Shown: piece by piece, positions 7,023-47,785 of the stretch
Layout of the letters: each line of letters starts with the position of its first letter
Position numbering within the stretch: position 1 is the stretch's first letter
Source of the DNA: Collinsella tanakaei
Lineage (GTDB): Bacteria > Actinomycetota > Coriobacteriia > Coriobacteriales > Coriobacteriaceae
Direction of reading: 5' to 3'
Assembly (NCBI RefSeq): GCF_016902615.1
Contig: NZ_JACJMB010000017.1
Coordinates: forward strand, 1-47,785
DNA: 47,785 nt
Notes under the pieces: model-generated
The model's input: the letters and a program-made list of their open reading frames with translations, nothing else
The model's database searches: none
Told to the model about the DNA's origin: nothing
Program-made: the position numbers and the translations under genes

Positions 7023-7033
7023 GGCGGAGTTTC

Positions 7034-7084
7034 GAGAGGACGGGCCTCTCAGTCCCAGGTGCGCGCGGGCCGGGGTGCCCGCGC
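7034..7084 (+). terminator. Two consecutive hairpins after the first SIS gene
   Basis: GAGAGG pairs with CCTCTC (7034-7050), and GCGCGGGC pairs with GCCCGCGC (7063-7070 with 7077-7084) around a 6-base loop. No T tract follows, so factor-independent termination is uncertain. They separate the SIS unit from the promoter at 7131. Confidence 0.4.
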
Positions 7085-7130
7085 CGCATGCTCCAAAGTC
7101 CCCGCGCCGTGCGCATCGTACACGAAGGTG

Positions 7131-7178
7131 TTGTTCACGCCTCATAAAAGGTATATAACGACTATAACGATACATACC
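7131..7178 (+). promoter_or_regulatory. Promoter of the DMT exporter with overlapping inverted repeat
   Basis: TTGTTC (7131-7136), a 17-base spacer, then TATAAC (7154-7159). An interrupted dyad GGTAT (7150-7154) to ATACC (7174-7178) overlaps the -10, and an ACGACTATAACGA segment lies between the arms. A related AACGACTT stretch occurs just ahead of the PTS gene (8481-8488), hinting at shared control. Confidence 0.5.
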
Positions 7179-7197
7179 TAAAGGAGGGGTGAATCAG

Positions 7198-8238: not shown

Positions 8239-8444
8239 GCCGCGGTGCGCATCACGCCGAGCGTGGCGGATCCGAGCCCTCGCCTAGCCGATCCCGTTGG
8301 ATGCATACGCGTCTCGGCATGTTTGTTACCGGTCCGATATGACCTCTTTATGCGTCTGAAATATTCCCTCATCGGCGGTAAACGGTTGGTTACGAGCCGT
8401 GAACGGAGAAAAATGCCAGCAAACACTTTGGTAGGCTAACACAC

Positions 8445-8474
8445 TATAGACGTGACGACTAAGACGTCTATAAT
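8445..8474 (+). promoter_or_regulatory. PTS operon promoter buried in a 9-10-9 inverted repeat
   Basis: TATAGACGT (8445-8453) and ACGTCTATA (8464-8472) are perfect complements around 10 bases. TATAAT (8469-8474) overlaps the right arm, and a weak -35 (TAGACG, 8447-8452) lies in the left arm at a 16-base spacing. A repressor bound here would cover both promoter boxes. TATAGAC resembles half of the GTxTAxAC sites of HutC-type GntR proteins. The 262-base gap before the gene holds nothing else I recognise. Confidence 0.65.
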
Positions 8475-8500
8475 GACCGTAACGACTTAAAGGAGGCGTG

Positions 8501-9436
8501 ATGAATCAGATTATTCTGGCATCGCACGGCGGGCTGGCAGCGGGAGCCCGCGACACGCTCGAGATGGTTCTCGGCAACGTGTCCAACGTCCACGTGGTTT
8601 CCTTGGCCCGCGACGACAAGGAGCCCATCACCAACGACGTGGAGAAGCTGATCGCCGGCTTCGCGCCCGACGATGCGGTGTACGTGTGCACCGACATGCT
8701 GGGCAGCAGCGTCAACAACTCGATGGTCGAGCTCATGAAGAAGAACGGGCGCATCACCGTCATCAGCGGTATGAACATGCCGCTCGTGCTCTCGCTCGCC
8801 ATCAGCCCCGAGCCCGTCACGGGCGCCGCGCTTCAGTCCCTCATCGCCGAGGCGCGCTCCGGTATGCGCAATTGCGCCTTGTCCGAGGAGCAGGAGCGCG
8901 CGCTCGCCGCGCCGGCGAAGAAGGGCAAGAAGGCCGCCGCGACGGCTGGCGCCGGCCCCGCGAACATCGTGCTTGTGCGCCTCGACTACCGCCTGCTGCA
9001 CGGCCAGGTCGTGTTCTCGTGGGTGAACTCCGTGGGCGCCCAACGCATCATCGTCGTCGATAACGCCGCTGCCACCGACGAGGTCAAGAAGGGCGCCCTC
9101 AGGCTCGCAAAGCCCTCCGGTGTGCGCCTGAACGTGTTCACGGTCGAGCGCGCGCTCGCCAAGATGGACAAGCTCAACACGCTCGGCGAGAACGTCATGT
9201 TCATCTTCGGCAACGTCCACGAGATGCTCGAGTTCTGCCAGTCCTACAAGTTCCCGACCATCAACTTCGGCGCCGCCGCGAACCATGACGGGGCGCACGC
9301 CGTGGGCGGCAAGGACTCCTCGGTCTTCCTGGATGCCGCCGAGTGCGCCGACGCGCAGAAGCTCCTCGACATGGGCATCACGATCTACGAGCAGCAGACC
9401 CCCACGCAGGCTCGTACGGATATCACCTCGTTCTAG
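8501..9436 (+). CDS. PTS mannose-family EIIAB component
   Basis: This cytoplasmic phosphotransfer protein of 311 aa is a ManX-like fusion. The EIIA domain (about 1-130) carries the phospho-accepting His in LASHGGLA (His9). An Ala/Lys-rich linker (about 141-156) leads to the EIIB domain, whose RLLHGQV supplies the second phospho-His (His167). Phosphate passes from HPr to IIA, to IIB, and then to the sugar entering through IIC/IID. The start follows AAAGGAGG closely. It is the first gene of the operon IIAB-IIC-IID-SIS behind the dyad promoter at 8445. The mannose family includes permeases for mannose, amino sugars and Amadori compounds (Gfr type), so family alone does not set the sugar. Confidence 0.95.
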   Translation: MNQIILASHGGLAAGARDTLEMVLGNVSNVHVVSLARDDKEPITNDVEKLIAGFAPDDAVYVCTDMLGSSVNNSMVELMKKNGRITVISGMNMPLVLSLAISPEPVTGAALQSLIAEARSGMRNCALSEEQERALAAPAKKGKKAAATAGAGPANIVLVRLDYRLLHGQVVFSWVNSVGAQRIIVVDNAAATDEVKKGALRLAKPSGVRLNVFTVERALAKMDKLNTLGENVMFIFGNVHEMLEFCQSYKFPTINFGAAANHDGAHAVGGKDSSVFLDAAECADAQKLLDMGITIYEQQTPTQARTDITSF

Positions 9437-9459
9437 TTTTGGCACGTCCCGTGCGGGCG

Positions 9460-9475
9460 GCGGCGACTTCGCCGC
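9460..9475 (+). other. Intercistronic hairpin between IIAB and IIC
   Basis: GCGGCG pairs with CGCCGC around ACTT. A wider arm pair GCGGGC (9453-9458) with GCCCGC (9497-9502) can enclose it. There is no T tract. Such a structure in the 102-base gap could protect or process the mRNA and set the IIAB to membrane-component ratio. Confidence 0.45.
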
Positions 9476-9538
9476 GCGGCCATTCCGCCGCATCTTGCCC
9501 GCAGGGTGCAGAGCATCCAACCAATGAAAGGAGAAGGT

Positions 9539-10339
9539 ATGGATACGCTCGTAAGCGCAGTCCTCGTCGGCCTCGTCGGCGTGTTCTGCATGCTCGATTC
9601 GCGCCTGCTCGGTCGTCTGAACTTCGAGCAGCCCCTGATCGGCGCCACGCTCGTCGGCGTGGTTCTGGGCGATGTGCCCACCGGCCTTGCGGTCGGCGCC
9701 GCGGTCGAGCTCGTCAGCATGGGTCTGGTGAGCGTCGGCGCGGCCGTGCCGCCCGACATGGTGCTCGGCGGCATCGTTGCCTCCGCGTTTGCCTGCCTGA
9801 CCGGCGCCTCCGCCGAGACGGCCATGACGATCGCCATCCCGGTCGCCGTCCTGGGCCAGCTCCTCGGCGTCGTGTTCCGCTCCATCATCGTGTTCTTGGG
9901 TCACATCGCCGATAGCGCGATCGAGGCGGGCCAGTTCAAGCGCGCCTACCACATGCACATCGTGTGGGGCACCGTCCTCTACTCGCTCATGTACTTCATC
10001 CCGATCTTCGTCGCCGTCTTCGCCGGTACCGACGTGGTTCAGGCGGTCGTCGATATGATCCCCGACTGGCTCACCAACGGCCTGAACGTCGCCTCCAAGA
10101 TCCTTACCGCCTACGGCTTGGCCCTGCTGCTGTCCATGATGATCAACAAGGGTATGACGGTCTTCCTCATCCTGGGCTTCATGCTCGCCTCCTACCTGGG
10201 GCTCTCCGTCATCGCGGTCTCCATCTTCGGCGTGATCCTGGCGGTCATCCTCATGGGCTTCAAGTTCGGTGGCGGCCAGCTTGCCGCGGCGGGTGCCGTC
10301 GACCCTGATTACGATCCGCTCGAAGACGACGATGAGTAA
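9539..10339 (+). CDS. PTS mannose-family EIIC component
   Basis: A 266-aa integral membrane component that forms the sugar pathway with IID. It is hydrophobic nearly throughout, and LGDVPTGLAVGAAVELVSMG matches the conserved ManY-type loop. The ATG at 9539 has AAAGGAGAAGG upstream; an earlier in-frame ATG at 9506 lacks a site. It ends in an acidic tail (DPLEDDDE), after which the IID ribosome site begins within the stop codon region, so the two are probably translationally coupled. Confidence 0.94.
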   Translation: MDTLVSAVLVGLVGVFCMLDSRLLGRLNFEQPLIGATLVGVVLGDVPTGLAVGAAVELVSMGLVSVGAAVPPDMVLGGIVASAFACLTGASAETAMTIAIPVAVLGQLLGVVFRSIIVFLGHIADSAIEAGQFKRAYHMHIVWGTVLYSLMYFIPIFVAVFAGTDVVQAVVDMIPDWLTNGLNVASKILTAYGLALLLSMMINKGMTVFLILGFMLASYLGLSVIAVSIFGVILAVILMGFKFGGGQLAAAGAVDPDYDPLEDDDE

Positions 10340-10352
10340 GGAGGAGATACCT

Positions 10353-11186
10353 GTGGCAACCACGAAGAAAGACGTTTCACTTCGTAAGAAGATCTGGCAG
10401 TTCTTCTGGCGCTCCTGGGCCATTCAGGATTCCTGGAACTACGAACGCCAGATGAACATGGGCTTCCTCTACGGCCTCGTGCCCACGCTCGACCGCTGCT
10501 ATCCGGATGAGTCCGACCCCAAGCAGCTTGAGCGCAAGAAGGAAGCGTACCGCCGCCATATGGCGTTCTACAACTGCACCCCGCAGACGAGCGCCTTCGT
10601 CCTCGGCCTTTCGGCCTCCATGGAGGAGAACTACGCTGAGGATCCCACGAGCATGGATCCCGATTCCATCAACGCGGTCAAGACCTCCCTCATGGGCCCG
10701 CTGTCCGGCGTCGGCGACTCGTTCTTCCAGGGCACCATCCGCGTCATCGCCTTCGGCCTGGGCGTCCAGCTCGCCCAGCAGGGCTCGGTGCTCGGCCCGG
10801 TGCTCGCGATGGTCATCTCCATCATCCCGTCGGTCCTCATCACCTGGTTCGCGGCCAAGCTCGGCTACCAGGGCGGCCATCAGTACCTGCAGAAGCTCCA
10901 GAGCGGCAACATGATGGACAAGGTCATGTACGTCTGCGGTATCGTCGGCCTCATGGCCGTGGGCGGCATGATCGCCACCCTGATCGGCGCCACGACCCCG
11001 GCCACCTTCTCCGACGGCACCCTCGTCATCCAGGACATCCTCGACTCCATCATGCCCCAGATGATCCCGCTGGCGCTTACCGGCATCATGTACTGGCTCA
11101 TCAAGCGCGGCGTCAAGACCGGTTGGCTGCTCGTCATCGCCATCGTCGGCGGCGTCATCCTCTCCGCGCTCGGCATCCTGGCCTAA
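10353..11186 (+). CDS. PTS mannose-family EIID component
   Basis: A 277-aa partner of IIC. The N-terminus has the family block RSWAIQDSWNYERQMNMGFLY; the middle holds SLMGPLSGVGDSFFQGTIR and the C-terminus is membrane-spanning. I chose the GTG at 10353 because AAGGAGG lies 8 bases before it. An ATG at 10332 overlapping the IIC stop is the alternative and would add seven residues. A GC-rich hairpin with a short T run follows before the SIS gene. Confidence 0.93.
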   Translation: MATTKKDVSLRKKIWQFFWRSWAIQDSWNYERQMNMGFLYGLVPTLDRCYPDESDPKQLERKKEAYRRHMAFYNCTPQTSAFVLGLSASMEENYAEDPTSMDPDSINAVKTSLMGPLSGVGDSFFQGTIRVIAFGLGVQLAQQGSVLGPVLAMVISIIPSVLITWFAAKLGYQGGHQYLQKLQSGNMMDKVMYVCGIVGLMAVGGMIATLIGATTPATFSDGTLVIQDILDSIMPQMIPLALTGIMYWLIKRGVKTGWLLVIAIVGGVILSALGILA

Positions 11187-11208
11187 AGCGAGACCCCCAC
11201 TTCCTGTT

Positions 11209-11251
11209 GCGCGGCGGCACGCCTGCACGCCGACGTCCGCCGCGCCCTTTT
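11209..11251 (+). terminator. Terminator or attenuator hairpin between IID and second SIS gene
   Basis: GCGCGGCGG (11209-11217) pairs perfectly with CCGCCGCGC (11237-11245), followed by CCTTTTC. No new promoter is evident before the SIS gene, so partial readthrough is likely and would lower deglycase expression relative to the transporter. Confidence 0.6.
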
Positions 11252-11316
11252 CACCCGTTGTTCGTGCGCCAGTCCGGCAATGTGACGGGCGCTCACAAAA
11301 GAAAGGAATGTTTTCC

Positions 11317-12300
11317 ATGTACGAGATCGACATGAACCTGCCCAAGGAGATCGTCGCCGACGTTCTCTCCAAGCACGACATCGACAGCGTCGCCTTCGTG
11401 GGCTGCGGTGCCTCCATGTCCGAGCTGTATCCTGCGAAGTACTTCCTCGCCAACAACACCCACAAGCTGAACGTGCAGATCTTCACCGCCAACGAGTTCA
11501 ACTACGACACCCCGAGCTGGCTCGGCCCCAACACGTTCGTGATCACCTGCTCGCTCGGCGGCAGCACGCCTGAGACGGTCGAGGCCAACAAGACCGCCAA
11601 GGCCGCCGGCGCCCCCGTGGTCGCCATCACCCACGCTGCCGGCTCCGCGCTCACCAAGGGCGTCGACCATGTGATCGTCCACGGCTTCGAGGCCAACTAC
11701 GCCGCCAAGACCGAGAAGATGGGCTACGCCATCGCCGTCGCGCTCGAGATCCTGCAGCAGACCGAGGGCTATGAGCACTACGACGAGATGCTCGAGGGCT
11801 TTGCGCACGTGTTCGAGTGCGCCGAGAACGCCGCCCAGTCGGTGGGCAAGGACGCAGAGGCTTGGGCCCAGGCTCACAAGGACGACGACTGCATCCACTT
11901 CCTCGCCTCCGGCGCGAGCGAGAAGGTCGCCTACTCCACCTCCCTGTTCCTCATGATGGAGATGCAGTGGATTAACTCCGGTAACTTCAACTCCGGCGAG
12001 TACTTCCACGGCCCGTTCGAGCTGACCGACGACAAGCACAACTTCGTGCTGTTCATGGCCGATGGCGCCACCCGTTCCATGGACGCCCGCGCCCTCACCT
12101 TCCTGCAGCGCTTCGACGCTCGCTACCTGGTGATCGACGCCAAGGACTTCGGTCTGTCCGGCTGCGTGCCCGCAAGCGTCGCCACCTACTTCAACCCGAT
12201 CGTGCACACCGCCGTCATGCGCGTGTACGCCGAGCACCTGGCCGACGCCCGCCAGCACCCGCTGACCAAGCGTCGCTACATGTGGAAGCTCACCTACTAA
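11317..12300 (+). CDS. SIS-domain sugar-phosphate deglycase, FrlB/FraB-like (second copy)
   Basis: The 327-aa protein is a diverged paralogue of the one at 6030, sharing the LQQTEGY-HYxEM segment, the FHGPFEL block and the RRYMWK ending. Glu215 and His231 are spaced 16 residues apart like the FraB/FrlB catalytic pair, and here the full NSGEYFHGP motif is kept. It is the last gene of the PTS operon, so it is the better candidate for acting on the compound the PTS phosphorylates, giving glucose 6-phosphate plus an amine. The ATG at 11317 is preferred over the one at 11308, which abuts the AAAGGA ribosome site. Classification among FrlB, GfrE/F and FraB needs phylogeny. Confidence 0.87.
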   Translation: MYEIDMNLPKEIVADVLSKHDIDSVAFVGCGASMSELYPAKYFLANNTHKLNVQIFTANEFNYDTPSWLGPNTFVITCSLGGSTPETVEANKTAKAAGAPVVAITHAAGSALTKGVDHVIVHGFEANYAAKTEKMGYAIAVALEILQQTEGYEHYDEMLEGFAHVFECAENAAQSVGKDAEAWAQAHKDDDCIHFLASGASEKVAYSTSLFLMMEMQWINSGNFNSGEYFHGPFELTDDKHNFVLFMADGATRSMDARALTFLQRFDARYLVIDAKDFGLSGCVPASVATYFNPIVHTAVMRVYAEHLADARQHPLTKRRYMWKLTY

Positions 12301-12344
12301 GGTATCGGGCAGATGCCTGCACAGCGACTCGACAGCTAGTGAGA

Positions 12345-12377
12345 GGGGGACGGGCCCGATCGGCCCGCCCCCTTTTT
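12345..12377 (+). terminator. Rho-independent terminator after the PTS/SIS operon
   Basis: A GGGGG-A-CGGGCC stem with one bulged A pairs with GGCCCGCCCCC, followed by TTTTT. It separates the operon from the HAD gene 17 bases downstream, which may be read by leakage. Confidence 0.85.
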
Positions 12378-12393
12378 CGATTGAGGAGGAACG

Positions 12394-13047
12394 ATGATCC
12401 GCGCGGTTCTCTTTGATATGGACGGGGTGCTCGTCGACACGGAATGGTTCTACAACCGTCGGCGCGTGGCATACCTCGAGACGAAGGGATTTACATTCGA
12501 CGAGATCCCCGACCTGTCGGGATCGAACGAGAAGGCCATCTGGGAGTATTTCGTGCCCGACGACCCGGTGCGGCGCGAGGAGCTTCGCCTGGGGTATTCC
12601 GCCTACCAGAAGGACCATCCCGTGCCCTACGAGGAGCTTTTGAACCGCGACGCCGCCCCGGTGATGCGCGCGCTGCACGAGCGGGGCGTGAAGCTCGCCA
12701 TCGCGAGCTCGTCGTACCGCGAGCTTATCGACGAGCTTGTGGACATCGCGGGCTTGGGCGACGTGCTCGACTTCACGATCAGCGGGCACGAATGCTCGGC
12801 GTTCAAGCCCGACCCGGAGATCTACGTGCGTGCGATGGAGGCGCTCGGCGTCGCGCCGGAGGAATCGCTGGTCATCGAGGACTCGCCGCTCGGTATCGAG
12901 GCGGGGCGCCGGGCGGGCGCGCGGGTGCTTGCGCTGCGGCCGCACGAGGGCGTGGTGCTCGATCAATCCGGTGCTGACCGAATAATCGGTTCGTTGACGG
13001 AGATTCTGGATGAGACCGAGGGGGCCCGGCTTTCGGAATACCGGTAA
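12394..13047 (+). CDS. HAD superfamily hydrolase, beta-phosphoglucomutase-like
   Basis: The 217-aa protein starts with the HAD nucleophile motif LFDMDGVLVD (Asp8 and Asp10) and a small helical cap. Later blocks are ASSS (motif II), FKPDPEIY (motif III lysine) and VIEDSPLGIEAG (motif IV). Such enzymes are small sugar-phosphate phosphatases or beta-phosphoglucomutases in the cytoplasm. The ribosome site is GAGGAGG. It sits between the PTS operon terminator and a GntR gene in the same direction, so a role in clearing a phosphorylated sugar from the same pathway is likely but unproven. Confidence 0.88.
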   Translation: MIRAVLFDMDGVLVDTEWFYNRRRVAYLETKGFTFDEIPDLSGSNEKAIWEYFVPDDPVRREELRLGYSAYQKDHPVPYEELLNRDAAPVMRALHERGVKLAIASSSYRELIDELVDIAGLGDVLDFTISGHECSAFKPDPEIYVRAMEALGVAPEESLVIEDSPLGIEAGRRAGARVLALRPHEGVVLDQSGADRIIGSLTEILDETEGARLSEYR

Positions 13048-13104
13048 CAGGGTATGATTAAAAATGCAATACACAGTTTTGTTCGATAGGATAGGACAAC
13101 CGCG

Positions 13105-13824
13105 TTGGCTGAACGAGTGACCCCGCTATACCAGCAGATCTTCGGGGAGATTAAAGCCGAGATCGACCGTGGCGACTACGCGCCGAAGGAGAAGATTCCG
13201 TCGGAGCCCGAGCTGTCGCAGAAATACGGCGTGAGCCGCATCACGGTCCGGCGCGCCATCGAGGAACTGTGTGCCGCGGGCTATCTCGTGAAACATCAAG
13301 GGCGCGGGACGTTCGTGAGCACGCCGCACATCAACCGGCACCTGCTGCAGACGGGTGTCGCGCAGAGCTTCACCCGGGTATGCGCCGAGGGCGGTATGCG
13401 CGCAGGCGCGCACGTGATCGACCGGCAGATCGTGCCGGCGCGCCCCGACGAGGCGGAGTTCTTCAGGCTCGACGCCGACGCGCTGCTGCTCTATATCCAG
13501 CGCGTGCGCACGGCCGACGGCCAGCCGATTTTCGAGGAGAACGTGTTTTTGCCCTACGAGGGCTACCAGGAGCTGCTGACGCGCTCGCTCGAGGACGTTT
13601 CGCTGTTCGAAACGATCACCGAGGTGGGCGGTAAGCGTCCGGTCCAGACGTCGTTTCGCACCGTGGAGGCCGTGCGCGCCACCTCCGAGCAGGCGAGCCG
13701 CCTGGCGATCACGACGAACGACCCGCTGCTGTTTTTGAACGTCGGGTTTGCCGATGAGCACGGCGATCCGGTGTGCTTCGGCCGCCAGTACTACGTGGGC
13801 AGCCGCTACCGGTTCGTGCTGTAG
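13105..13824 (+). CDS. GntR/UTRA transcriptional regulator (second)
   Basis: The 239-aa regulator has a winged helix at about 5-75 (PLYQQIFGEIKAEI, PSEPELSQKYGVSRITVRRAI, KHQGRGTFV) and a UTRA domain (about 90-235). The start is a TTG at 13105 after GGATAGGAC; a GTG five codons later is an alternative. It follows the HAD gene by 57 bases, a gap with AT-rich sequence and a TATGAT box. With another GntR/UTRA protein at the far end of the island, there are two candidate repressors for three operator-bearing promoters. Which controls which cannot be told from sequence. Confidence 0.92.
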   Translation: MAERVTPLYQQIFGEIKAEIDRGDYAPKEKIPSEPELSQKYGVSRITVRRAIEELCAAGYLVKHQGRGTFVSTPHINRHLLQTGVAQSFTRVCAEGGMRAGAHVIDRQIVPARPDEAEFFRLDADALLLYIQRVRTADGQPIFEENVFLPYEGYQELLTRSLEDVSLFETITEVGGKRPVQTSFRTVEAVRATSEQASRLAITTNDPLLFLNVGFADEHGDPVCFGRQYYVGSRYRFVL

Positions 13825-38506: not shown

Positions 38507-39490
38507 TTATACATTCCACGATGCGGGTAGCAGCAATCGCCGAAGTGACCGCTTCTCCGGCGTCAGTCCCAGGGGGACGCATGCCGGCGCAAGGCCAAGA
38601 TGGTGGGCGATTCGCTGCACAATGCCCTCGAAGCAATCGAAATCCTGCAGACGCTCGGGCGTGATGAACATCACGGTATAGCCCATGGCCTCGATATCGT
38701 CACGACGGTCTTCATCGGCGTGCTTAGAGCCCGGTTCATCATGGTAGAGGAGGCTTTGGTATTCCAAAACGAGCTGCGCTTCCCGGTAGACAAGGTCTCC
38801 GTAGCGCGTTTTCTCATCATGCTGTTGCCCTAGGTAGGCAATGATCGGCAGGTCGGCATTACGTTCGGGAATCGGCAAGCCGTACTCACCCTCGGCAGGT
38901 GGCAGGCACAGCAGGAGCAACAGGGCCGATTCCATGGGGGAGGCCGATTTGTTTTGCACATAGTGCAGTGCCTGACGGGCGGCTATGCTGTCCGGCTCTC
39001 TGACAAACCGTTCGAGTGCAGCCGTGATAGAAGAGACGTTCGTGAGAGGCTCGGGATCGTACTGCGTTGCCATCTCAGGGTAGTGTTCGGGCGCCGTGGC
39101 ATAGGTTCCGCACAGCTCGAGGCCGAGCTGTGCTCGCAGAGCGAGCGGCTTAGCTCGGCAGAACAGGATATATGTCATCTCAGGGCTCAAGCCCTTGCAG
39201 CATTCATCGAGCTCAATGAAGTCAACGCCACCGCGGACCGGGGGAATTACCTGGCAGTTTACAAGTTTGGAGGGACGTCGATCCGCCTTCGCGGGAACGA
39301 AGATGCGATAGGGGAGGGGAAGTAGTGGCAGTATCGACGAGACCCGAAGAAGCGGGCGGATATCGCGAACGCCGCGCGCACGACAGGCGAGCTCGCCTAT
39401 GGCGAGCGTAGAGGGTGCGCTCGGGCGCGGGTAGGCTCCGAGGCGCATCAGCTCAAGCGAAGGGTTCTCAGTCAAATACACGGTCTTCAT
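38507..39490 (-). CDS. Hypothetical protein with C-terminal PD-(D/E)XK/DUF559-like nuclease fold
   Basis: The 327-aa protein is not recognised over its first 200 residues. The C-terminal part has GDLVYREAQLVLEYQS, placing Asp232, then ten residues, then Glu243-Tyr-Gln245. These are followed by H250, a D/R-rich helix (HADEDRRDDIEAMGY) and a VMFI strand, the order seen in VSR/DUF559-type nuclease domains. The N-terminal part loosely recalls viral-defence or AbiE-like regulators, but I cannot establish that. GC content is lower than in neighbours and the flanks are AT-rich, so it was probably acquired. No ribosome site is obvious. A TGTA-GTAT-TACA dyad lies just upstream of the start and may be an operator. 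Confidence 0.65.
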   Translation of the reverse strand: MKTVYLTENPSLELMRLGAYPRPSAPSTLAIGELACRARGVRDIRPLLRVSSILPLLPLPYRIFVPAKADRRPSKLVNCQVIPPVRGGVDFIELDECCKGLSPEMTYILFCRAKPLALRAQLGLELCGTYATAPEHYPEMATQYDPEPLTNVSSITAALERFVREPDSIAARQALHYVQNKSASPMESALLLLLCLPPAEGEYGLPIPERNADLPIIAYLGQQHDEKTRYGDLVYREAQLVLEYQSLLYHDEPGSKHADEDRRDDIEAMGYTVMFITPERLQDFDCFEGIVQRIAHHLGLAPACVPLGLTPEKRSLRRLLLPASWNV

Positions 39491-41226: not shown

Positions 41227-41522
41227 AGATGCCACACACCCTCTACGAGAACCATCCCATACTACGAGATACGGTGACGGGAACGGGTAAAGCAGTTTAT
41301 ATGCTTCAGGTTTTCCACATTATTGCGCGGGCTGCACCGGGGGCGGCGCTTTGCGCGCGCCGGACGAGAGCATAGGCGTGATGGCGCCACTTCATGCGCC
41401 GCGCGACGGTCGGATGCGCTGCGGTATGCCGCAAACGTTGCGGGCGCTCGCCACCCCTTTGACCTGCGGTTTGCAAAAAGCTGCAGAAATGCTCCGGTCG
41501 AACATTTCAAACGTCTGGAGCG

Positions 41523-41551
41523 TTGAAGTGAGAGTTAGACGTGGCTACACT
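41523..41551 (+). promoter_or_regulatory. Promoter of the MFS gene
   Basis: TTGAAG (41523-41528), a 17-base spacer, TACACT (41546-41551), 81 bases before the chosen ATG. Confidence 0.5.
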
Positions 41552-41631
41552 GGGCCCGAAATCAGATGGTGAGGTGCCTTGCGGTCGATCGATGGCAGCG
41601 GGCGCCTGGTAGATGAGGGCTGGTGGTGGCT

Positions 41632-42816
41632 ATGGCGGACGGCAGGACGGGTCGCGGGCTTTCTCGGGATGCCCGCGTGATGCTCGCGGCGAGCTTTTTC
41701 TATCTGAGCAGCACGATGCTCGTGACCCCCGTGATCTCGGGGTTCGCCGGATCGTTGGGCGCCACGGCTGCGTTCATGGGCGTCATCGGCGGCCTCATGA
41801 ACGTCTGCTCGCTCGTGATGCGCCCCATCGCCGGTAACCTTTCCGACATCATGCGCAAGCGCCGCATCGCCACGATCGGTTCCATCGTGCTCGCCACCTC
41901 GACGACGCTCTACGCCTTCGTGACCGACCCCATGCAGGTGGCGGTGCTGCGACTCATCAGCGGGGCGGGCTACGCCTTCTGCTCTGTGTGCATGTCGACC
42001 TGGTTCGCCTCGCTGCTGCCGCCCGAGCACGTCGGCAGCGGCATGGGCATGTTCGGCATGATGAATGCGCTCGGCATGGCGGTCGGTCCGGCCATCGCCC
42101 TGGCGATCAGCGACGCGTTCGGGTATCGCCCGGCGCTCGTCTTCGGCGGTGCCATGGCGGCCATGACGATGGTGCTCGTACAGTTCGTGAGCAACCCCGG
42201 AGAGCCCGTGGGCGCGAGTGCGCAGCAGGGCGACGCATCTGAGCACCCCGCCCGCAAGCTCGCGATCGTCGACGTCCGCGTCGTACCGGCCGCGCTCATC
42301 ATCGCGCTGTTCACGATTCCCTATATGGCTACGCAGTCGTTTCTCGTGAGTTTCGTCGCGGCGCGCGGGCTCGACGTCGCCGTCAGCATGTTCTTCCCGG
42401 TCTACGCTATCGTGCTGCTCGCCATGCGCTATCTGCTCAAGCGCCAGTTCGACACCGTGAAGTTCGGCCCGTTCCTGTTCGCGGCGTCCGCCTCGGCCAT
42501 CGCGTCGCTGGCGCTGCTCACCCTCATGCGCGGCAACGTCGCGATGTTTGTCGCCGCCGCGTGCATGGCGGGCGGCTACGGCATCATGTGTTCGGTCTGC
42601 CAGTCGACGGCCGTGCGCCTCGTGGGCCCCGAGCACGCCGGCATGGCGAACAGCACCTACTATATGGGGCTCGATATCGGCATGGCGGTCGGCCCCATGA
42701 TCGGCGGCGTGCTGTTCGGCTCGGTCGACCTCAACCTGTTCTATCCGATTCTTGCCATCACGGTTCCCGCGGCGCTCGCGGTCTACGCGTGCTCGAAGGG
42801 CCTGCGCCGCATGTAG
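41632..42816 (+). CDS. MFS transporter
   Basis: The protein is about 394 aa with 12 predicted membrane segments. A polar loop after segment 6 (NPGEPVGASAQQGDASEHPARK) divides the halves. After segment 2 the loop NLSDIMRKRR is the conserved MFS motif A region. The family exports drugs or imports sugars and organic acids; the substrate is not evident. Start choice is uncertain: GTG codons at 41623 and 41626 lie nearer to the GAGGG site than the ATG at 41632. It is convergent with the LacI gene, with a shared terminator. Confidence 0.87.
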   Translation: MADGRTGRGLSRDARVMLAASFFYLSSTMLVTPVISGFAGSLGATAAFMGVIGGLMNVCSLVMRPIAGNLSDIMRKRRIATIGSIVLATSTTLYAFVTDPMQVAVLRLISGAGYAFCSVCMSTWFASLLPPEHVGSGMGMFGMMNALGMAVGPAIALAISDAFGYRPALVFGGAMAAMTMVLVQFVSNPGEPVGASAQQGDASEHPARKLAIVDVRVVPAALIIALFTIPYMATQSFLVSFVAARGLDVAVSMFFPVYAIVLLAMRYLLKRQFDTVKFGPFLFAASASAIASLALLTLMRGNVAMFVAAACMAGGYGIMCSVCQSTAVRLVGPEHAGMANSTYYMGLDIGMAVGPMIGGVLFGSVDLNLFYPILAITVPAALAVYACSKGLRRM

Positions 42817-42821
42817 CGCGC

Positions 42822-42857
42822 GGGGCGCTGTCCCCGATGGGGACAGCCGGGCGCCCC
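42822..42857. terminator. Bidirectional terminator between MFS and LacI genes
   Basis: An outer stem GGGGCGC (42822-42828) with GCGCCCC (42851-42857) encloses an inner stem CTGTCCCC/GGGGACAG around GAT. The inner sequence recalls the outer part of the mfd-flanking palindrome (CCCCGATGGGG). Confidence 0.65.
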
Positions 42858-43859
42858 TTACGCGCTCTCGCGCACGACGAGGGTGGGGGAGAACACGAGG
42901 TGCTGACGGGCGGCTGCCGCACCGCCTTGCGCCTCGATGGCCTCCACCGCCATGCGCGCGGCCTTCTGGCCCATCTCGATGGCGGGGATCTCCATGGCGG
43001 TCATGGTCGTTTCGAGCATCCGTCCGATGGCGTGTCCCGTGAGGCAGATGACGCGGATGTCGTCGGGGCACTTGAGACCGCGCTCGTGCAGGACGCGCAT
43101 CGCGCCGAGCCCCTGGATGTCCACGGCGGCCGCGATGGCGTCGAGGTTCGGGTGCTCGTCGAGCAGGCGCGCCGCGCAGCGATAGCCGTACTCGAAGTTG
43201 TTGGGTTCCAGGTTGCTCGACGGCGTGACGCAGATGCTCTCGAGTCCGTGCTCGCGGATCGCGTCGCGGTAGCCGTCGTAGCGGCGCTTGTAGGGGGAGA
43301 TGGAGCGGGGGCTGTTGATGAGGCCGATCTCGCGGCAACCCTTCTCCATCAGGTAGTGGATCGCCTCGTAGCTGCAGGCGTAGTAGTCTGCCACGACGCT
43401 GCTCAGGCTCTGCTCCTGCATGCGGACGACCTGTACGACGGGCGTGCCCTCCGTCTGGATGTCGCGCATGAGACGGCCGTTTTTGCCCGTGCCTGCGATG
43501 ATGATCGCGTCGACGAAGCCGCTGCGCATGCGGTTCAGGCTTTCGGCCTCGAGCTTGGGGTCGTCGTTGCTGTTGGCGAAGATAATGGAGTACCCGAGCT
43601 TCTGGGCCTCCTCTTCCACACCCTGCGCGATCTCGGCGAAAATCGTGAGCTGCAGACGGGGGACCACGATGCCGATCGTATGCTGCCGTCCGCGGCGCAG
43701 CCCCTGGGCGATGGGGTTGGGGCGGTAGCCCAGCTCCTTTGCCGCCTTGAGGATGCGCGCCTTGGTGGCGGGATGCACGTGAGCGGTGTTGTTGAGTGCG
43801 CGCGAGACGGTGCTCACGTCGACGTTTGCCAGCTGGGCAACGTCTTTCAGGGTCGGCAT
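42858..43859 (-). CDS. LacI-family transcriptional regulator
   Basis: The 333-aa protein has an N-terminal LacI helix-turn-helix (TLKDVAQLANVDVSTVSRALN) with hinge helix PNPIAQGLRRG, then a periplasmic-binding-type effector domain (about 60-330). Such proteins repress catabolic operons at AACGTT-centred palindromes. Its start has GAAGGGAGG upstream. It is divergent from the lyase/transporter operon at 44280, and the intergenic region has several GCAA/TTGC dyads. The effector is unknown. Confidence 0.95.
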   Translation of the reverse strand: MPTLKDVAQLANVDVSTVSRALNNTAHVHPATKARILKAAKELGYRPNPIAQGLRRGRQHTIGIVVPRLQLTIFAEIAQGVEEEAQKLGYSIIFANSNDDPKLEAESLNRMRSGFVDAIIIAGTGKNGRLMRDIQTEGTPVVQVVRMQEQSLSSVVADYYACSYEAIHYLMEKGCREIGLINSPRSISPYKRRYDGYRDAIREHGLESICVTPSSNLEPNNFEYGYRCAARLLDEHPNLDAIAAAVDIQGLGAMRVLHERGLKCPDDIRVICLTGHAIGRMLETTMTAMEIPAIEMGQKAARMAVEAIEAQGGAAAARQHLVFSPTLVVRESA

Positions 43860-43989
43860 GGCGCCTCCCTTCTATATATGTAGACCGTCGGGCAAAACGG
43901 TGTCCGGGAGTTTCCTCATAAATATGGCCCCGCACGTGCCAGTTGTGCAAGTCCAAAGCCGAATAGTTCATAGATTATATTGTGATAAT

Positions 43990-44215
43990 ACAAACGATTG
44001 CACAAATATGTCTGCAAATGATGAACTTCAATATCGAAGTGGAATCCTGCAGTACAAAAAGCACTAAATCATAGGTTACCTTGTGTTTTGAGGATGAACG
44101 GTAGGTATTTGAGGGCGAGCGTACCGTCCGTGCAATTTGTTGCAAGGCTTGCATAATTCATTGAATTGGTCCGAAGAACAGGCTTTAATACAGGTCAAGC
44201 AAAGCAAACGTTTGC
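43990..44215 (+). promoter_or_regulatory. LacI operator cluster and promoter of the lyase/transporter operon
   Basis: GCAAACGTTTGC (44204-44215) is a perfect LacI-type operator just downstream of the presumed start site. A near copy, ACAAACGATTGCA, is at 43990-44002. Further dyads are TGCAATTTGTTGCA (44131-44144) and GCAAGGCTTGC (44142-44152). The likely promoter is TTGAAT (44161-44166), 17 bases, TTTAAT (44184-44189). Two well-separated operators suggest looping. The gap between the divergent genes is 420 bases and otherwise AT-rich. Confidence 0.75.
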
Positions 44216-44279
44216 ATTACTTGCTACGCGGGAGCAGCTACCCCGCACAAGTCAAAAGCGTGAGAAGGGATTTTCGACC

Positions 44280-45251
44280 ATGGCTAAGACCGTTACCTTC
44301 AAGACCATCTTCCCGGCCGTCTCCGTGCCTCTGAACGAGGACTACTCCATCAACGAGCCCGAGTTCCGCGCCTACCTGCGCTGGATCAAGTCCTTCTACG
44401 GCAAGGGCATCGAGGGCCTGGTCTGCAACGGCCACACCGGCGAGATCACCAGCCTGACCCAGCCCGAGCGCAAGCGCGTCACCGAGATCTGCGCTGAGGA
44501 GTGCGGCGACTGCATGACCATCATCTCCGGTGTCAACTGCGAGCACACCGCGGGCGCCATCGAGATGGCTCGCGAGGCCAAGGAGGCCGGCGCTGACGGC
44601 ATCCTGCTCATGCCGCCTCACATGTGGCTCCGCTTCGGCATGAACCCGGATGCCCCGTTCGAGTACGTCAAGGACGTTGCCGAGGGCGCCGACATCGACA
44701 TCATCATCCACCTGTATCCCGCGACCTCCAAGGCCTTCTATCCCGTCGAGACCCTCGTCAAGATGTGCAAGGAGATCGACCACGTCAAGTGCATCAAGAT
44801 GGGCACCCGCGTTACCTCCATCTACGAGCACGACGTCCGCGTCCTGCGTGAGGAGTGCCCGGACATCTCGCTGATCACCTGCCACGACGAGACCCTCTGC
44901 CCCTCCTGGTTCACCGGCATGGACGGCGCCCTCATCGGCTTCGCCGGCTGCGTGCCCGAGCTCATCTGCCCGGCGTGGGATGTCTTCAAGAACCCCGCCG
45001 AGCACACGCTCAAGGAGGCCCAGGACTGGTCCGACCGCATCTATCACATCGCTCAGGCCATCTACGGCGGCGGCCAGCCCTCTGGTGAGGCTCACGCTCG
45101 CCTCAAGGAGACCCTGTACCAGCGCGGCATCTTCACCAACGCCATCATGCGCAAGCCCGTTCTCCCGCTCAACCAGGAAGAGAAGGACTGGGTTGCCGAG
45201 GGCATCAAGAAGTCTGGCCTCGACAAGGTCGATATGACCCAGTTCGCGTAA
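44280..45251 (+). CDS. DapA/NanA-family lyase or aldolase
   Basis: The 323-aa TIM-barrel enzyme forms a Schiff base with a 2-oxo acid. The catalytic Lys is Lys173 in KCIKMGT and the partner Tyr is Tyr146 in HLYPATS. The carboxylate-binding loop is NGHTGE. DapA itself carries a GTTGE loop and differs, and this gene has LacI control and a transporter partner, so a catabolic 2-oxo acid aldolase or lyase is more likely than lysine synthesis. The ATG at 44280 follows AGAAGGGA. It is the first gene of an operon with the Nramp-like gene at 45363. The substrate is unknown; sugar acids, sialic-acid-like compounds and hydroxyproline-derived oxo acids are candidates. Confidence 0.85.
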   Translation: MAKTVTFKTIFPAVSVPLNEDYSINEPEFRAYLRWIKSFYGKGIEGLVCNGHTGEITSLTQPERKRVTEICAEECGDCMTIISGVNCEHTAGAIEMAREAKEAGADGILLMPPHMWLRFGMNPDAPFEYVKDVAEGADIDIIIHLYPATSKAFYPVETLVKMCKEIDHVKCIKMGTRVTSIYEHDVRVLREECPDISLITCHDETLCPSWFTGMDGALIGFAGCVPELICPAWDVFKNPAEHTLKEAQDWSDRIYHIAQAIYGGGQPSGEAHARLKETLYQRGIFTNAIMRKPVLPLNQEEKDWVAEGIKKSGLDKVDMTQFA

Positions 45252-45287
45252 GGGTTCATATCTCCCATACGCCCTGCGTGTGATTAC

Positions 45288-45345
45288 GGGCGGCCATCGC
45301 GAACCCAAATAGCTCCTAATGGGTCGCGTGGCCGCCCCTCTTTTA
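45288..45345 (+). terminator. Internal terminator/attenuator between lyase and transporter
   Basis: GGGCGGCC (45288-45295) pairs with GGCCGCCC (45330-45337), and a CGCGA/TCGCG plus CCCA/TGGG extension with small bulges lengthens the stem. CTCTTTTAT follows. The transporter ATG is only 18 bases past it, so readthrough must supply transporter mRNA. Confidence 0.75.
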
Positions 45346-45362
45346 TAGAGAGGAGCTTCTCA

Positions 45363-46673
45363 ATGGCAGACACCACCGCTGTCGATGAGGGCCTCGCCCC
45401 TGCCGATAACGTCTTCGGTTTCGAACCCTCAAGCGTCAAGCGCCTACCGATCACCGAGTTGCTGAAGCGCATGGGTCCCGGCTTCGTGCTTGCCGGCATC
45501 CAGCTCGGCCCCGGTTCCCTGACCACCTCCGCTATGCTGGGCGGCGACTACGCCTACCAGCTCCTTTGGGTCCTTCTGCCCGTCATCTTCATGGGCACGA
45601 CCTTCATCTTAGTCGCCTATCGCCTCGGCATGGCAACGGGCAAGCCGACCATCGACGCCATCCGCGAGTACTACGGCAACGCCGCGGCGACATTCGTCGG
45701 CCTCGTCACCTTCTTCGCCTGCGTCTGCTTCAACATCGGCAACGTCGCCGGTATCGGCGCGGGCATGAGCCTGATCTTCGGCATAGACTGGAAGATAGGC
45801 GCGGCCATCGTCATGGTCTTCGTGTTTTTGTGCTACTTCCTGAAGGGCGTGTACGGCAAGATTGAGAAGGCCGTCACCGTCTGCATCGCCGTCATGGCGA
45901 TCGCCTTCATTGTCGTGCTCGTCATGACCGGCGGTCCCGACTGGGCAGCAGCCGGATCCGGTCTCGTGCAGTGGCAGTTCCCTGAGGGCAGCCTCGTGAC
46001 CGTGCTCGGCTTCCTCGGCTCCTCCGCCTCCGTGCTTGCCGGTATGTACGGCACGTACCTGGGCGTCGAGAAGGAGTGGAAGAAGCAGGACCTCTTCAAC
46101 GGCGTCATGGTTTCCGACGCGCTGGCCCAGGTTCTCGGTACCGTCGTCATCTCCGGCGTGGTCATCATGGTCGGCGCCATCGTGCTGAACCCGACCGGTC
46201 AGGAGATCAAGAACATCGGCAACCTCGCGGTCATGCTTGAGCCCGCTTTCGGTCAGTTCGCGAACCTCGTCATGGGCGTCGCCTTCCTCGCTGCGGCCTT
46301 CGCCGCCATCATGGGCAACACCGGCCGCTGCTCGGTGTTTTTGAACGCGGGCCTGAACCTGCCGACGGGCCTCGACTCCAAGAACATCAAGATCACCGCC
46401 GCGTGCATCCTGGTCGGAGCCATGGCCATCGCGTTCGCCTACGGCAGCTCGCCCATCCAGCTGACCTACTTCTCCAACGTTCTGACGAGCATCGGTACGC
46501 CGACCGCCGGCTTCTTCATCACGCGCATGATCTGGCGCAAGGATGTCAGCCGTGGTCTGAAGGCGCCGCGTGCCCTGCAGATCTGCATGACGGTGAGCTA
46601 CATCTTCTACACCGCGCTCATGCTCTTCGCGCTCTATCGTGCCGTTCCCAACTTCCTGGGCTCGATCATGTAG
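45363..46673 (+). CDS. Nramp-fold transporter lacking the metal-binding motifs
   Basis: The 436-aa protein has about 11 membrane segments and an overall Nramp pattern (RMGPGFVLAGIQLGPGSLTT, DYAYQLLWVLLP, GNTGRCSVFLNAG). The first-helix DPGN motif of metal transporters reads GPGS (Gly49 to Ser52), and the sixth-helix MPH position aligns to Gly-Met-Tyr (about 227-229). The Asp, Asn and Met that bind Mn or Fe are therefore absent. Non-metal Nramp relatives occur next to organic-acid genes in other bacteria. Here the partner is a DapA/NanA-like lyase under LacI control, so an organic substrate is inferred. The N-terminal 30 residues are polar. GAGGAG precedes the ATG. Confidence 0.85.
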   Translation: MADTTAVDEGLAPADNVFGFEPSSVKRLPITELLKRMGPGFVLAGIQLGPGSLTTSAMLGGDYAYQLLWVLLPVIFMGTTFILVAYRLGMATGKPTIDAIREYYGNAAATFVGLVTFFACVCFNIGNVAGIGAGMSLIFGIDWKIGAAIVMVFVFLCYFLKGVYGKIEKAVTVCIAVMAIAFIVVLVMTGGPDWAAAGSGLVQWQFPEGSLVTVLGFLGSSASVLAGMYGTYLGVEKEWKKQDLFNGVMVSDALAQVLGTVVISGVVIMVGAIVLNPTGQEIKNIGNLAVMLEPAFGQFANLVMGVAFLAAAFAAIMGNTGRCSVFLNAGLNLPTGLDSKNIKITAACILVGAMAIAFAYGSSPIQLTYFSNVLTSIGTPTAGFFITRMIWRKDVSRGLKAPRALQICMTVSYIFYTALMLFALYRAVPNFLGSIM

Positions 46674-46681
46674 CGCACACG

Positions 46682-46775
46682 CGTAAGGACCTGTTGGCGC
46701 ACGTCCTTACGTCGGAAAAACTTGTCTCCCCCTTTCCGTGTGTACGGGGGCTCGCTTTGCAAGGCGGGCCCCCGT
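46682..46775 (+). terminator. Two hairpins after the Nramp-like gene
   Basis: CGTAAGGAC (46682-46690) pairs with GTCCTTACG (46703-46711). ACGGGGGC (46744-46751) pairs with GCCCCCGT (46768-46775). Neither has a T tract. The first is close to the stop codon and is the likelier end of the operon. Confidence 0.5.
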
Positions 46776-47208
46776 GCGCGTATCTGCGGGCACGCGACGC
46801 CTCGCTACTCTACCCCATGCGAGGCGCGCATCGGATTGCCGAAACGTTGCTGCAACATGCGGGCGGCGCGCCGCCGCTTGCCTGGCCGGTGCGCGGGTGG
46901 GAGGGGCGCCCGTACCGTTCACCGATGGATAGGTGCCGCTCGGCTGCACCAGACGGGCAGGTAGGCGCGTTGTCCCAGCAAGCCAAGAGGGGAGAAACGA
47001 GCGCGCTGCCTTCGGTTTTCCGGCGTGCGGCGCATGCATGCGGCGGCGGGACCTTTGTGGAACCTGTGGAGATTTGAGGTACTATTTCAACTATTGCAAG
47101 CCGCCGACCGGTTAGCAGCCTCTAGAGGCCCTTGCCCTTCTTCGAGGGAATTAAGATCGGGCAAATTCTGCTGGTCGGCACGTTGTTCCCAAGAGGGGGA
47201 AGCAAGGT
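46776..47208 (+). promoter_or_regulatory. Leader of the P-type ATPase gene
   Basis: A possible promoter is TTGTGG (about 47055) with TACTAT 19 bases on. The leader then carries a 12-bp palindrome GCCTCTAGAGGC (47118-47129) and TTGCCC/GGGCAA arms spaced about 30 bases apart. I could not match it to the Mn, Mg or NiCo riboswitch classes. The upstream part of this gap shows no gene. Confidence 0.3.
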
Positions 47209-47785
47209 ATGCAGAAGGAATACTTGGCTTCGGCCGAGGAGGTGCTCGAGGAGCAATCCTCGAATGCCGAAACCGGCCTTACCGCCAGTGTGGCGCAACA
47301 GCGTCTGGCGGAAGTCGGCCCGAACAAGCTGGATGAGGAAGAGAAGACCCCGCTGTGGATCCGCTTCTTCCAGCAGATGGCCGACCCGATGGTCATCATG
47401 CTCATCGTCGCCGCCGTGATCTCCGCGGTGACCGGCATGATCCAGGGTGAGTCCGAATGGGCAGACGTCGTCATCATCATGGCCGTCGTCATCATCAACT
47501 CCGCCCTCGGCGTCATCCAGGAGGCGAAGTCCGAGGAGGCGCTGGCTGCCCTGCAGGAGATGAGCGCCGCCCAGTCCAAGGTCATCCGCGACGGCAAACT
47601 CGTCATGCTGCACTCGTCCGAGCTCGTGCCTGGCGACATCATCCTGCTCGAGGCGGGCGACTCGGTTCCCGCCGATTGCCGCGTGCTCGAGAGCGCCTCG
47701 ATGAAGATCGAGGAGGCAGCCCTGACCGGCGAGTCCGTGCCGGTCGAGAAGCACACCGATGCCATCGAGCTCGCCGCTGATTCCG
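47209..47785 (+). CDS. P-type cation-transporting ATPase, P2 type (N-terminal part, runs off window)
   Basis: Only the first 192 residues are present. They show the cation-ATPase N-terminal region (LTASVAQQRLAEVGPNKLDEEEKTPLWIRFFQQMADPMVIMLI), the first two membrane segments, LGVIQEAKSEEALAAL, and the actuator domain with PGDIILLEAGDSVPADCRV and the TGES motif (about 173-176). This is the pattern of Ca-transporting SERCA/PMCA-like bacterial pumps (PacL, YloB). The phosphorylation site lies beyond the window. GAGGGGGA is 8 bases ahead of the ATG. The exact ion cannot be set from this part. Confidence 0.92.
   Translation, partial: MQKEYLASAEEVLEEQSSNAETGLTASVAQQRLAEVGPNKLDEEEKTPLWIRFFQQMADPMVIMLIVAAVISAVTGMIQGESEWADVVIIMAVVIINSALGVIQEAKSEEALAALQEMSAAQSKVIRDGKLVMLHSSELVPGDIILLEAGDSVPADCRVLESASMKIEEAALTGESVPVEKHTDAIELAADS

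Follow-up and report, generated by a model that had tools for sequence, protein, structure and literature searches.

PxpT, an Nramp-family protein of C. glutamicum, has been described as necessary for growth on 5-oxoproline, with the GntR-type PxpR as repressor (PMC13274462). In B. subtilis, overexpression of YcsG raised intracellular Mn, a ycsG triple mutant with mntH and mntA was unobtainable without an extra copy, and the protein was reported to be a Mn importer (PMC10448178). The same protein, as MntG, was assigned to the 'G-motif 3' group in a 2026 preprint, where most Nramp-related groups are given as uncharacterised and one as a hypothesised Mn importer (PMC12873925). For the NRMT family, the motif DxxG-TxxA/T (PMC8806188) and, in part of the family, an upstream M-box riboswitch (PMC4072509) have been reported.

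In this study, we analysed a Collinsella locus within a window of 47.8 kb (the whole stretch of DNA examined). Judged from its sequence, the locus is best read as a catabolic operon of two genes that a LacI-family repressor controls; these quite probably encode an Nramp-fold organic-acid importer and a lyase.

Organisation and regulatory region of the locus

The initial annotation described a lyase gene paired with an Nramp-fold gene and a divergent LacI gene, and all of these elements were borne out by the ends of the open reading frames and by Pfam assignments. The pair extends from the start ATG at 44280 to the last stop at 46673, exactly as first delimited. The DHDPS-family class I lyase gene occupies 44280..45251 on the plus strand (Pfam DHDPS, E 3e-29), and the gene of the Nramp-fold protein, a proposed organic-acid importer placed by its tree in a GPG-motif subclade, lies at 45363..46673 on the same strand (Pfam Nramp, E 3.2e-53). 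The LacI-family repressor gene (Pfam LacI and Peripla_BP_1/3) is found on the minus strand at 42858..43859, divergent from the pair, and has an orthologue at the equivalent place in Collinsella loci L033, L034, and L035. Both genes of the pair are under purifying selection (dN/dS 0.05-0.16), and a pseudogene was ruled out by the open frame of the transporter gene and its dN/dS of ~0.15. The neighbours at the locus are the LacI, DHDPS lyase, MFS, and P-type ATPase genes, with neither pxpABC nor hydantoinase/oxoprolinase genes beside the transporter. The upstream MFS gene (41623-42816), which runs towards lacI, was not counted as an operon member, although it is a conserved neighbour of lacI in L033-L035.

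GCAA/TTGC dyads had been noted between lacI and the lyase gene, and these proved to be real. A perfect 12-bp palindrome, GCAAACGTTTGC, is located at 44204..44215, 64 bp 5' of the lyase ATG; with its central CG, we take it to be a LacI-family-type operator. A second operator-like site, ACAAACGATTGC, lies at 43990..44001, 214 bp away centre to centre. These two sites were the sole matches with at most two mismatches in the window, where their number was ordinary (1.44 expected; at least two sites in 45 of 100 shuffles). However, both fall inside the 420-bp divergent region and are invariant across four aligned Collinsella loci, and chance dyads were rejected on these grounds. In the 2.45-Mb genome, GCAAACGTTTGC occurs at two places; the second copy, on contig 13, is flanked by two ORFs, one for a membrane protein and the other for a phosphoglycerate-mutase-like product (assigned by eye), and no connection with the locus was found. 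A simple promoter scan returned no sigma-70-like promoter 5' of the lyase gene, which was counted against the operon reading. An Rfam scan of 41500-47785 gave no match at the gathering threshold, and an M-box or other riboswitch was rejected accordingly.

Between the two genes, 45288..45337 on the plus strand can form a strong stem-loop, after which comes a short run of T residues; the element resembles a terminator or processing site. The fold of 45252-45362 reached -52.2 kcal/mol (z -5.4). In the alignment, the hairpin was similar in L033 and L035 but not in L034, and a simple terminator scan did not flag it. With this hairpin between them, lyase and transporter may or may not be cotranscribed.

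Active-site and metal-ligand positions

The lyase carries the subfamily signature GHxGE / PxHxWLRFG / YP / KxGxR / CHDE. It had been annotated as a Schiff-base lyase relying on Lys173 and Tyr146. For comparison with E. coli DapA, we take Lys161 of that enzyme to be the Schiff-base lysine and Tyr133 the catalytic tyrosine. Lys173 (codon 44796-44798, plus strand) aligns with DapA Lys161 and sits on strand 6 (169-174 in an AF2 model), so that this half of the assignment stood. The Tyr133 column, however, holds His144 (Phe in the rhizobial branch), and Tyr146, though invariant across the lyase subfamily, is two residues further on and aligns with DapA Val135; it was therefore not retained as the catalytic tyrosine. 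The AF2 model, derived from five sequences (mean pLDDT 67) and used solely for fold and strand limits, matched DHDPS/NAL structures. E. coli DapA and its compatriot YagE are 18-20% identical to the lyase; E. coli nanA, incomplete in its stretch, was left out of the comparison. The lyase scored below the cut-offs of all listed NCBIfam models (dapA, 85 versus 206 bits; nanA, 78 versus 281 and 67 versus 382 bits), and NCBIfam, Pfam, and PDB searches yielded no specific function. Identities as N-acetylneuraminate (sialic acid) lyase or DapA were rejected on the basis of these sub-cut-off scores and the altered catalytic residues. DHDPS-family lyases are not known to require a metal.

In TM1 of the transporter, alignment with E. 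coli MntH confirmed that GPGS (residues 49-52; codons 45507..45518, plus strand) replaces the metal motif DPGN. The TM6 region at the MPH position reads SASVLAG (residues 221-227; codons 46023..46043, plus strand). The MPH columns held Ser223-Val224-Leu225 in one multiple alignment and Val224-Leu225-Ala226 in another, and the phmmer alignment to DraNramp also placed Ser223-Val224 there. Neither Met, Pro, nor His occurs at these columns; thus, the loss of MPH was upheld, but its proposed replacement by Gly-Met-Tyr (227-229) was not. Asn127 occupies the column of the MntH TM3 Glu. The protein scored 181.5 bits against Pfam PF01566 (Nramp; cut-off 29.8) and passed the NCBIfam equivalog NF037982, 'Nramp family divalent metal transporter' (65 versus 50 bits), but fell far below the cut-offs of NCBIfam MntH (91 versus 430 bits) and TIGR01197 nramp (55 versus 272.5). 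Its best solved relative by sequence was entry 7qia, presumably the Mg transporter EleNRMT; the NRMT DxxG motif of TM1 is absent, GPGS being found there. The other Nramp of the genome is a separate NRMT-type protein with DAGG in TM1. Because an AF2 model from four close Collinsella sequences reached a mean pLDDT of only 35 and was discarded, the Nramp fold was deduced from sequence.

Distribution of the pair and carrier exchange

Orthologues of lyase and transporter were found in the identical 4 of 43 Collinsella genomes, a co-occurrence with a chance of 1 in 123,410 if the genes were independent and shared descent is ignored. The transporter search of genome contigs returned three Collinsella loci; viral contigs contained no transporter relative and one lyase relative. 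When 396 Actinomycetota genomes were searched with the subclade profile, nothing exceeded 230 bits below two Collinsella matches (612-620 bits), and sampling of the subclade outside Collinsella therefore came from plasmid records only. In the lyase search of 396 Actinomycetota genomes, five had matches with E up to 1e-25: the two from Collinsella, plus three that were 26-29% identical. None of these last three loci carried the complete subfamily signature when checked for its motifs. The closest lyase relatives found outside Collinsella were on Bacillota plasmids.

The initial annotation had staked its reading on linkage of the transporter clade to the lyase in other genomes, and such linkage was present in Neorhizobium. 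A plasmid of Neorhizobium petrolearium carries divergent LacI, DHDPS, and Nramp genes in the same order as Collinsella, the two Nramps being about 25-28% identical. In the tree, the Collinsella, Neorhizobium, and five haloarchaeal Nramps formed a separate 10-row clade with support 100/100 and long branches; a clade of Collinsella and Neorhizobium was neither favoured nor rejected (p-AU 0.36). This was the second tree computed, without the odd ORF of L072 and two Rhizobium Pop5 proteins, and the sequences of C. glutamicum PxpT and B. subtilis YcsG were absent from tree and comparisons. The five haloarchaeal loci contained Gfo/Idh/MocA dehydrogenase genes, without a DHDPS lyase of the Collinsella type.

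In A. fabrum C58 and R. leguminosarum, the LacI type of N. petrolearium recurs (75 and 78% identical, respectively) together with its DHDPS (87 and 91%), and the operator palindrome GGGAACGTTCCC 5' of the DHDPS gene is common to all three; where N. petrolearium has Nramp, however, the other two have an MFS carrier. Among the best 30 plasmid records for the N. petrolearium DHDPS, all of the other 29 had MFS downstream on the same strand, with gaps between DHDPS match and MFS gene of 183-244 bp in 27 records and of 357 and 673 bp in two with one partial match. This MFS scored best with the aromatic acid/H+ symport model but did not reach that model's cut-off. In the exchange of Nramp and MFS, the single case of N. 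petrolearium carries much weight. Because repressor type, operator, and lyase are common to the MFS-bearing operons of Rhizobium/Agrobacterium and the Nramp-bearing one of Neorhizobium, growth on one shared substrate would be predicted to need either carrier. If this prediction held, the organic acids carried by the Nramp family would extend past 5-oxoproline, annotations as metal transporters in gut bacteria would need correction, and the result would bear on whether the family's ancestor carried organic substrates.

Elsewhere in the lyase subfamily, the carrier was SSS in L. plantarum (lyase 65% identical) and Novosphingobium, TAXI-TRAP in Paenisporosarcina, and MFS in Priestia, Acinetobacter, Azoarcus, Rahnella, and Burkholderia. 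In each of the 15 subfamily neighbourhoods examined (3 Collinsella and 12 others), a carrier gene either adjoined the lyase gene or was no more than a few genes away. Porin genes were found near the lyase operons of Azoarcus (OprD-family) and Burkholderia. Among the papers listed for DHDPS-family/LacI/MFS operons, no identified pathway emerged.

That Nramp occupies the slot of an MFS, SSS, or TRAP carrier in relatives supports the importer reading. Together with the Neorhizobium linkage, this upholds the core of the proposed LacI-regulated catabolic route, the residue details aside. In the mechanism that we envisage, the repressor would probably sit on both conserved operators when substrate is absent, and lyase and transporter would be made when the substrate or its product is present. 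The Nramp-fold protein would then import a small organic acid, either sugar-acid-like or aryl and bearing a hydroxy or 2-oxo group, with H+ or Na+ as the conceivable coupling ion. Through a Schiff base at Lys173, the lyase would split or dehydrate this acid, the likely products being pyruvate and an aldehyde.

The GPG motif was also considered across Actinomycetota Nramps. Pxp (5-oxoprolinase) or Hyu (hydantoinase) genes lay within ~5 kb in 23 of 32 GPG-motif neighbourhoods, compared with 0 of 26 D-motif ones (Fisher p 3e-9); the remaining 9 of 32 had neither. The neighbourhoods were hand-picked from ranked similarity lists with neighbours unseen, not every entry being taken, and those cut by contig ends were retained. 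Excluded from the count were the second ORF of L072 (GAGD, likely not Nramp), a GASG protein (L171), and the GPGT locus L136 (frame broken by TAG); loci from plasmids, from the Collinsella operon, and from Neorhizobium were likewise not counted. In the plasmid records examined, GPG-motif proteins carry the label 'Nramp family divalent metal transporter'. We give about even odds to a broader reading in which the GPG-motif half of the Nramp superfamily would be organic-acid transporters without a metal role. Substrate and partner enzyme would then differ from one subclade to the next (5-oxoprolinase, hydantoinase, haloarchaeal sugar-acid dehydrogenases, or DHDPS lyase), and the Collinsella-Neorhizobium subclade would be a carboxylate importer able to replace an MFS symporter within the same regulon.

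Alternative readings and comparison with known systems

The Nramp-fold protein could instead be a divalent-metal importer (Mn, Fe, or Mg) that drifted into a catabolic operon. Its family membership, the passed NF037982 equivalog, and the presumed EleNRMT as nearest solved structure are in keeping with this, as is what has been claimed for YcsG/MntG from overexpression and triple-mutant failure (PMC10448178). On the other hand, TM1 has neither of its ligands (D, N), the MPH motif is missing, Asn127 replaces the TM3 Glu, the genome already has its NRMT-type Nramp, there is no M-box, and the regulator is LacI rather than a metal regulator. Moreover, the Neorhizobium relative stands in for a carboxylate-type MFS carrier, the operons being closely similar in other respects. 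Taken together, these data make a metal importer unlikely.

Slightly less probable still, the protein could export or exchange organic acids, ridding the cell of a lyase product or toxic intermediate instead of importing the lyase substrate. Transport direction is not readable from sequence, and the lyase would yield a small product, for example an aldehyde or 2-oxo acid; yet the same slot in related operons holds importer-type families (SSS, TRAP-TAXI, and AAHS-type MFS), and porin genes neighbour the operons of Azoarcus and Burkholderia. The relative PxpT is, in addition, needed for growth on its substrate (PMC13274462). It is very improbable that lyase and transporter are functionally unrelated and adjoin merely through joint horizontal transfer into Collinsella. 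Such a history would suit the patchy distribution, the plasmid-borne Bacillota lyases, and the intergenic hairpin, but Neorhizobium keeps the gene order although its transporter, a member of the same subclade, is only distantly related, both genes are under purifying selection, and a carrier gene recurs near the lyase throughout the 15 neighbourhoods. An importer and lyase acting in one catabolic operon thus remains our preferred reading.

Like LacI(or LysR)-DHDPS-MFS operons of rhizobia, Agrobacterium, Acinetobacter, Azoarcus, Burkholderia, Rahnella, and Priestia, the Collinsella operon combines the lyase signature with an enzyme-plus-carrier logic, and its divergent LacI is shared with the rhizobial and Agrobacterium operons; unlike it, those operons use an MFS carrier resembling aromatic acid/H+ symporters. 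With N-acetylneuraminate lyase, DapA, and KDG aldolase (YagE), the lyase shares the DHDPS-family barrel and the Schiff-base Lys, but it differs from DapA in having His in place of both T44 and Tyr133. The transporter has its Pfam family in common with canonical Nramp/MntH (DraNramp and E. coli MntH) and with NRMT (EleNRMT), but lacks DPGN/MPH of the former and DxxG-TxxA/T of the latter. As in PxpT (C. glutamicum), YcsG (B. subtilis), and PxpG (C. difficile), an Nramp-family protein with Gly for the TM1 metal Asp (GPGT in Pxp-linked proteins of the Eggerthellaceae type) belongs to an operon for organic-acid catabolism that has its own repressor. However, Pxp/Hyu-linked proteins have V[PGT]YNLFLH in TM6, where the Collinsella transporter has SxxA without Pro or His; identity to them is 21-28%, and the clades are separate (100/100). 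The partner likewise differs, being a class I lyase with LacI in Collinsella and an ATP-dependent 5-oxoprolinase in PxpT-type operons. The initial claim that no such system had been described is thus tempered by PxpT, which is the precedent for an Nramp-family protein needed for growth on an organic acid; what is new is a separate Nramp subclade, another enzyme partner, and a carrier swap.

Organization and control region of the locus

The host genome (2.45 Mb) is that of a Collinsella, as are the close loci that bear names. ORF and Pfam analyses placed an MFS gene (41623-42816, + strand) convergent with a LacI-family gene (42858-43859, - strand), which is separated by 420 bp from a divergent DHDPS-family lyase gene (44280-45251, + strand); a gene for an Nramp-family protein (45363-46673, + strand) lies downstream. 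Within the lacI-lyase divergent region, an operator-like perfect palindrome, GCAAACGTTTGC, starts at 44204, and a second operator-like site, ACAAACGATTGC, starts at 43990. These were the sole sites in the window with no more than 2 mismatches from the palindrome; two such sites are unremarkable in a window of this size, and it is their location that is unusual. Both sites were unchanged in the four aligned Collinsella loci, though much of the surrounding region varies, and the perfect palindrome was found at 2 places in the 2.45-Mb genome. We infer that both are targets of the LacI protein encoded alongside. A simple scan upstream of the lyase gene found no sigma-70-like promoter. Between the lyase and transporter genes, a hairpin (45288-45337) showed folding much stronger than that of shuffled sequences (z -5.4), and a like form was present in 2 of the 3 other Collinsella loci (L034 differs). 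This hairpin may reduce expression of the transporter relative to the lyase and could set the ratio of the two.

Elsewhere in the window, ORF translations at 6030-13824 read like a cluster for amino-sugar or Amadori-product (fructoselysine/glucoselysine) utilisation, comprising what we take to be two SIS-domain-like proteins, PTS mannose-family-like components, a HAD-like protein and a GntR-like regulator. A 327-aa ORF at 38507-39490 (- strand) had no Pfam match at E 0.001.

The lyase subfamily and its changing carriers

The initial annotation had assigned Lys173 and Tyr146 to a Schiff-base lyase. Lys173 indeed aligned with the Schiff-base Lys of DapA, but the residue in the DapA Tyr133 column is His, or Phe in the rhizobial type, and not Tyr146; His also occupies the DapA Thr44 column. 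GHxGE, PxHxWLRFG, YP, KxGxR and CHDE were common to 11 aligned subfamily members; neither DapA nor YagE of E. coli, aligned alongside them, has the full set. The closest relatives found beyond Collinsella were on L. plantarum plasmids (65% identity). Matches at E up to 1e-25 occurred in 5 of 396 Actinomycetota genomes, exceeding 29% identity in the 2 Collinsella only, and the subfamily signature was not found in the 3 non-Collinsella matching loci. The Collinsella lyase was likely acquired from Bacillota. A DHDPS gene of this subfamily was also found in IMG/VR, terminally on a contig (L103, 5356-6267) with ORFs that, judged by eye, are DNA-methylase-like and terminase-like; it perhaps marks a prophage border.

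Orthologues of the lyase and transporter occurred in an identical set of 4 of 43 Collinsella genomes. The same order of divergent LacI, same-subfamily DHDPS and same-subclade Nramp was found in N. petrolearium. Its LacI and DHDPS are, respectively, 75% and 87% identical to those of A. fabrum C58, and 78% and 91% identical to those of R. leguminosarum; all three carry the palindrome GGGAACGTTCCC upstream of the DHDPS gene, and the latter two operons have an MFS carrier where N. petrolearium has the Nramp. Among the best 30 plasmid records for this DHDPS, N. petrolearium had the Nramp and the other 29 a same-strand downstream MFS. Beside more distant subfamily members, the slot was occupied by an SSS carrier (L. 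plantarum, Novosphingobium), a TRAP-TAXI carrier (Paenisporosarcina) or an MFS carrier (Priestia, Acinetobacter, Azoarcus, Rahnella, Burkholderia). For the C58 and Priestia MFS proteins, the top model was aromatic acid/H+ symport, with a score under the cut-off. The common denominator of these carriers is a predicted organic-acid importer.

The DHDPS-MFS pair is widespread (loci L176, L177, L178 and L179, and Agrobacterium/Rhizobium records), with LacI or LysR adjoining and, in Azoarcus, also an OprD-family porin. The literature searched identified no substrate for it.

Motifs, phylogeny and neighbourhoods of the transporter

The transporter is an unmistakable Nramp-family member by Pfam and also passed the general NCBIfam divalent-metal Nramp model. 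Alignments bore out GPGS in TM1 where canonical Nramps have DPGN; the MPH columns, previously read as Gly-Met-Tyr, hold Ser-Val-Leu or Val-Leu-Ala, depending on the alignment, and Asn127 replaces the TM3 Glu of MntH. The other Nramp in this genome has the NRMT motif DAGG. Maximum-likelihood analysis of 62 Nramp-related proteins grouped 4 Collinsella, 1 Neorhizobium and 5 haloarchaeal proteins into a single clade (100/100 support), separate from canonical Nramps, NRMT-like and Pxp/Hyu-linked proteins, in a tree with long branches; an exclusive Collinsella-Neorhizobium clade was neither favoured nor rejected (p-AU 0.36). A GPGT Nramp in another locus (L136, G027:C7) has its reading frame broken by one TAG, possibly reflecting a pseudogene, a sequencing error or a draft artefact.

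Actinomycetota neighbourhoods were hand-picked, blind to neighbouring genes, out of similarity rankings that took the Collinsella protein or its subclade as reference. Genes for 5-oxoprolinase (PxpA/B/C) or hydantoinase-oxoprolinase (HyuA/B) lay within ~5 kb of 23 of 32 Nramps with GPG in TM1, as against 0 of 26 with the D motif (Fisher p 3e-9, related genomes not being independent). The Pxp cluster of one locus (L082) was fully confirmed by Pfam. GPG-motif Nramps also adjoin HyuA or HyuA-HyuB in L045 (Haloarcula hispanica pHH406), L098 (Halorussus), L069, L071-L075, L138 and L143, and a D-glutamate-cyclase-like gene is often also present in the Actinomycetota Hyu-linked loci. The Hyu-linked proteins likely constitute a second uptake system for 5-oxoproline or hydantoin.

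The proposed lyase linkage of the window's subclade, seen again in N. petrolearium, did not extend to the five haloarchaeal members examined (L042, L043, L044, L046, L095; all annotated as metal transporters), where no lyase was seen. All five had at least one Gfo/Idh/MocA dehydrogenase gene nearby, some also sulfatase, heparinase (II/III), FAH-family or amidohydrolase genes; these neighbours point to sugar-acid-like substrates.

Comparison with known Nramp-family proteins

Growth of C. glutamicum on 5-oxoproline is reported to need the Nramp-family PxpT, the loss of which was complemented; the authors do not rule out metal transport by PxpT (PMC13274462). B. subtilis YcsG has been reported to import Mn and was given the name MntG (PMC10448178). 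A 2026 preprint sorts Nramp-related proteins without DPGN/MPH into groups, with MntG in 'G-motif 3', and terms the remaining groups, NRMT-like excepted, uncharacterised (PMC12873925). Apart from the 5-oxoproline papers, titles and abstracts of open-licence literature yielded no Nramp paired with DHDPS or hydantoinase, or with sugar or organic substrates.

The initial idea of an Nramp-fold organic-acid importer stands, with its residue details corrected and with PxpT as a precedent that it had not named. That an Nramp-family protein can be needed for growth on an organic acid was already known; we class the Collinsella transporter as a putative importer of this kind, which would work in the same way as PxpT but belongs to a separate clade and has a different enzyme partner, the lyase.
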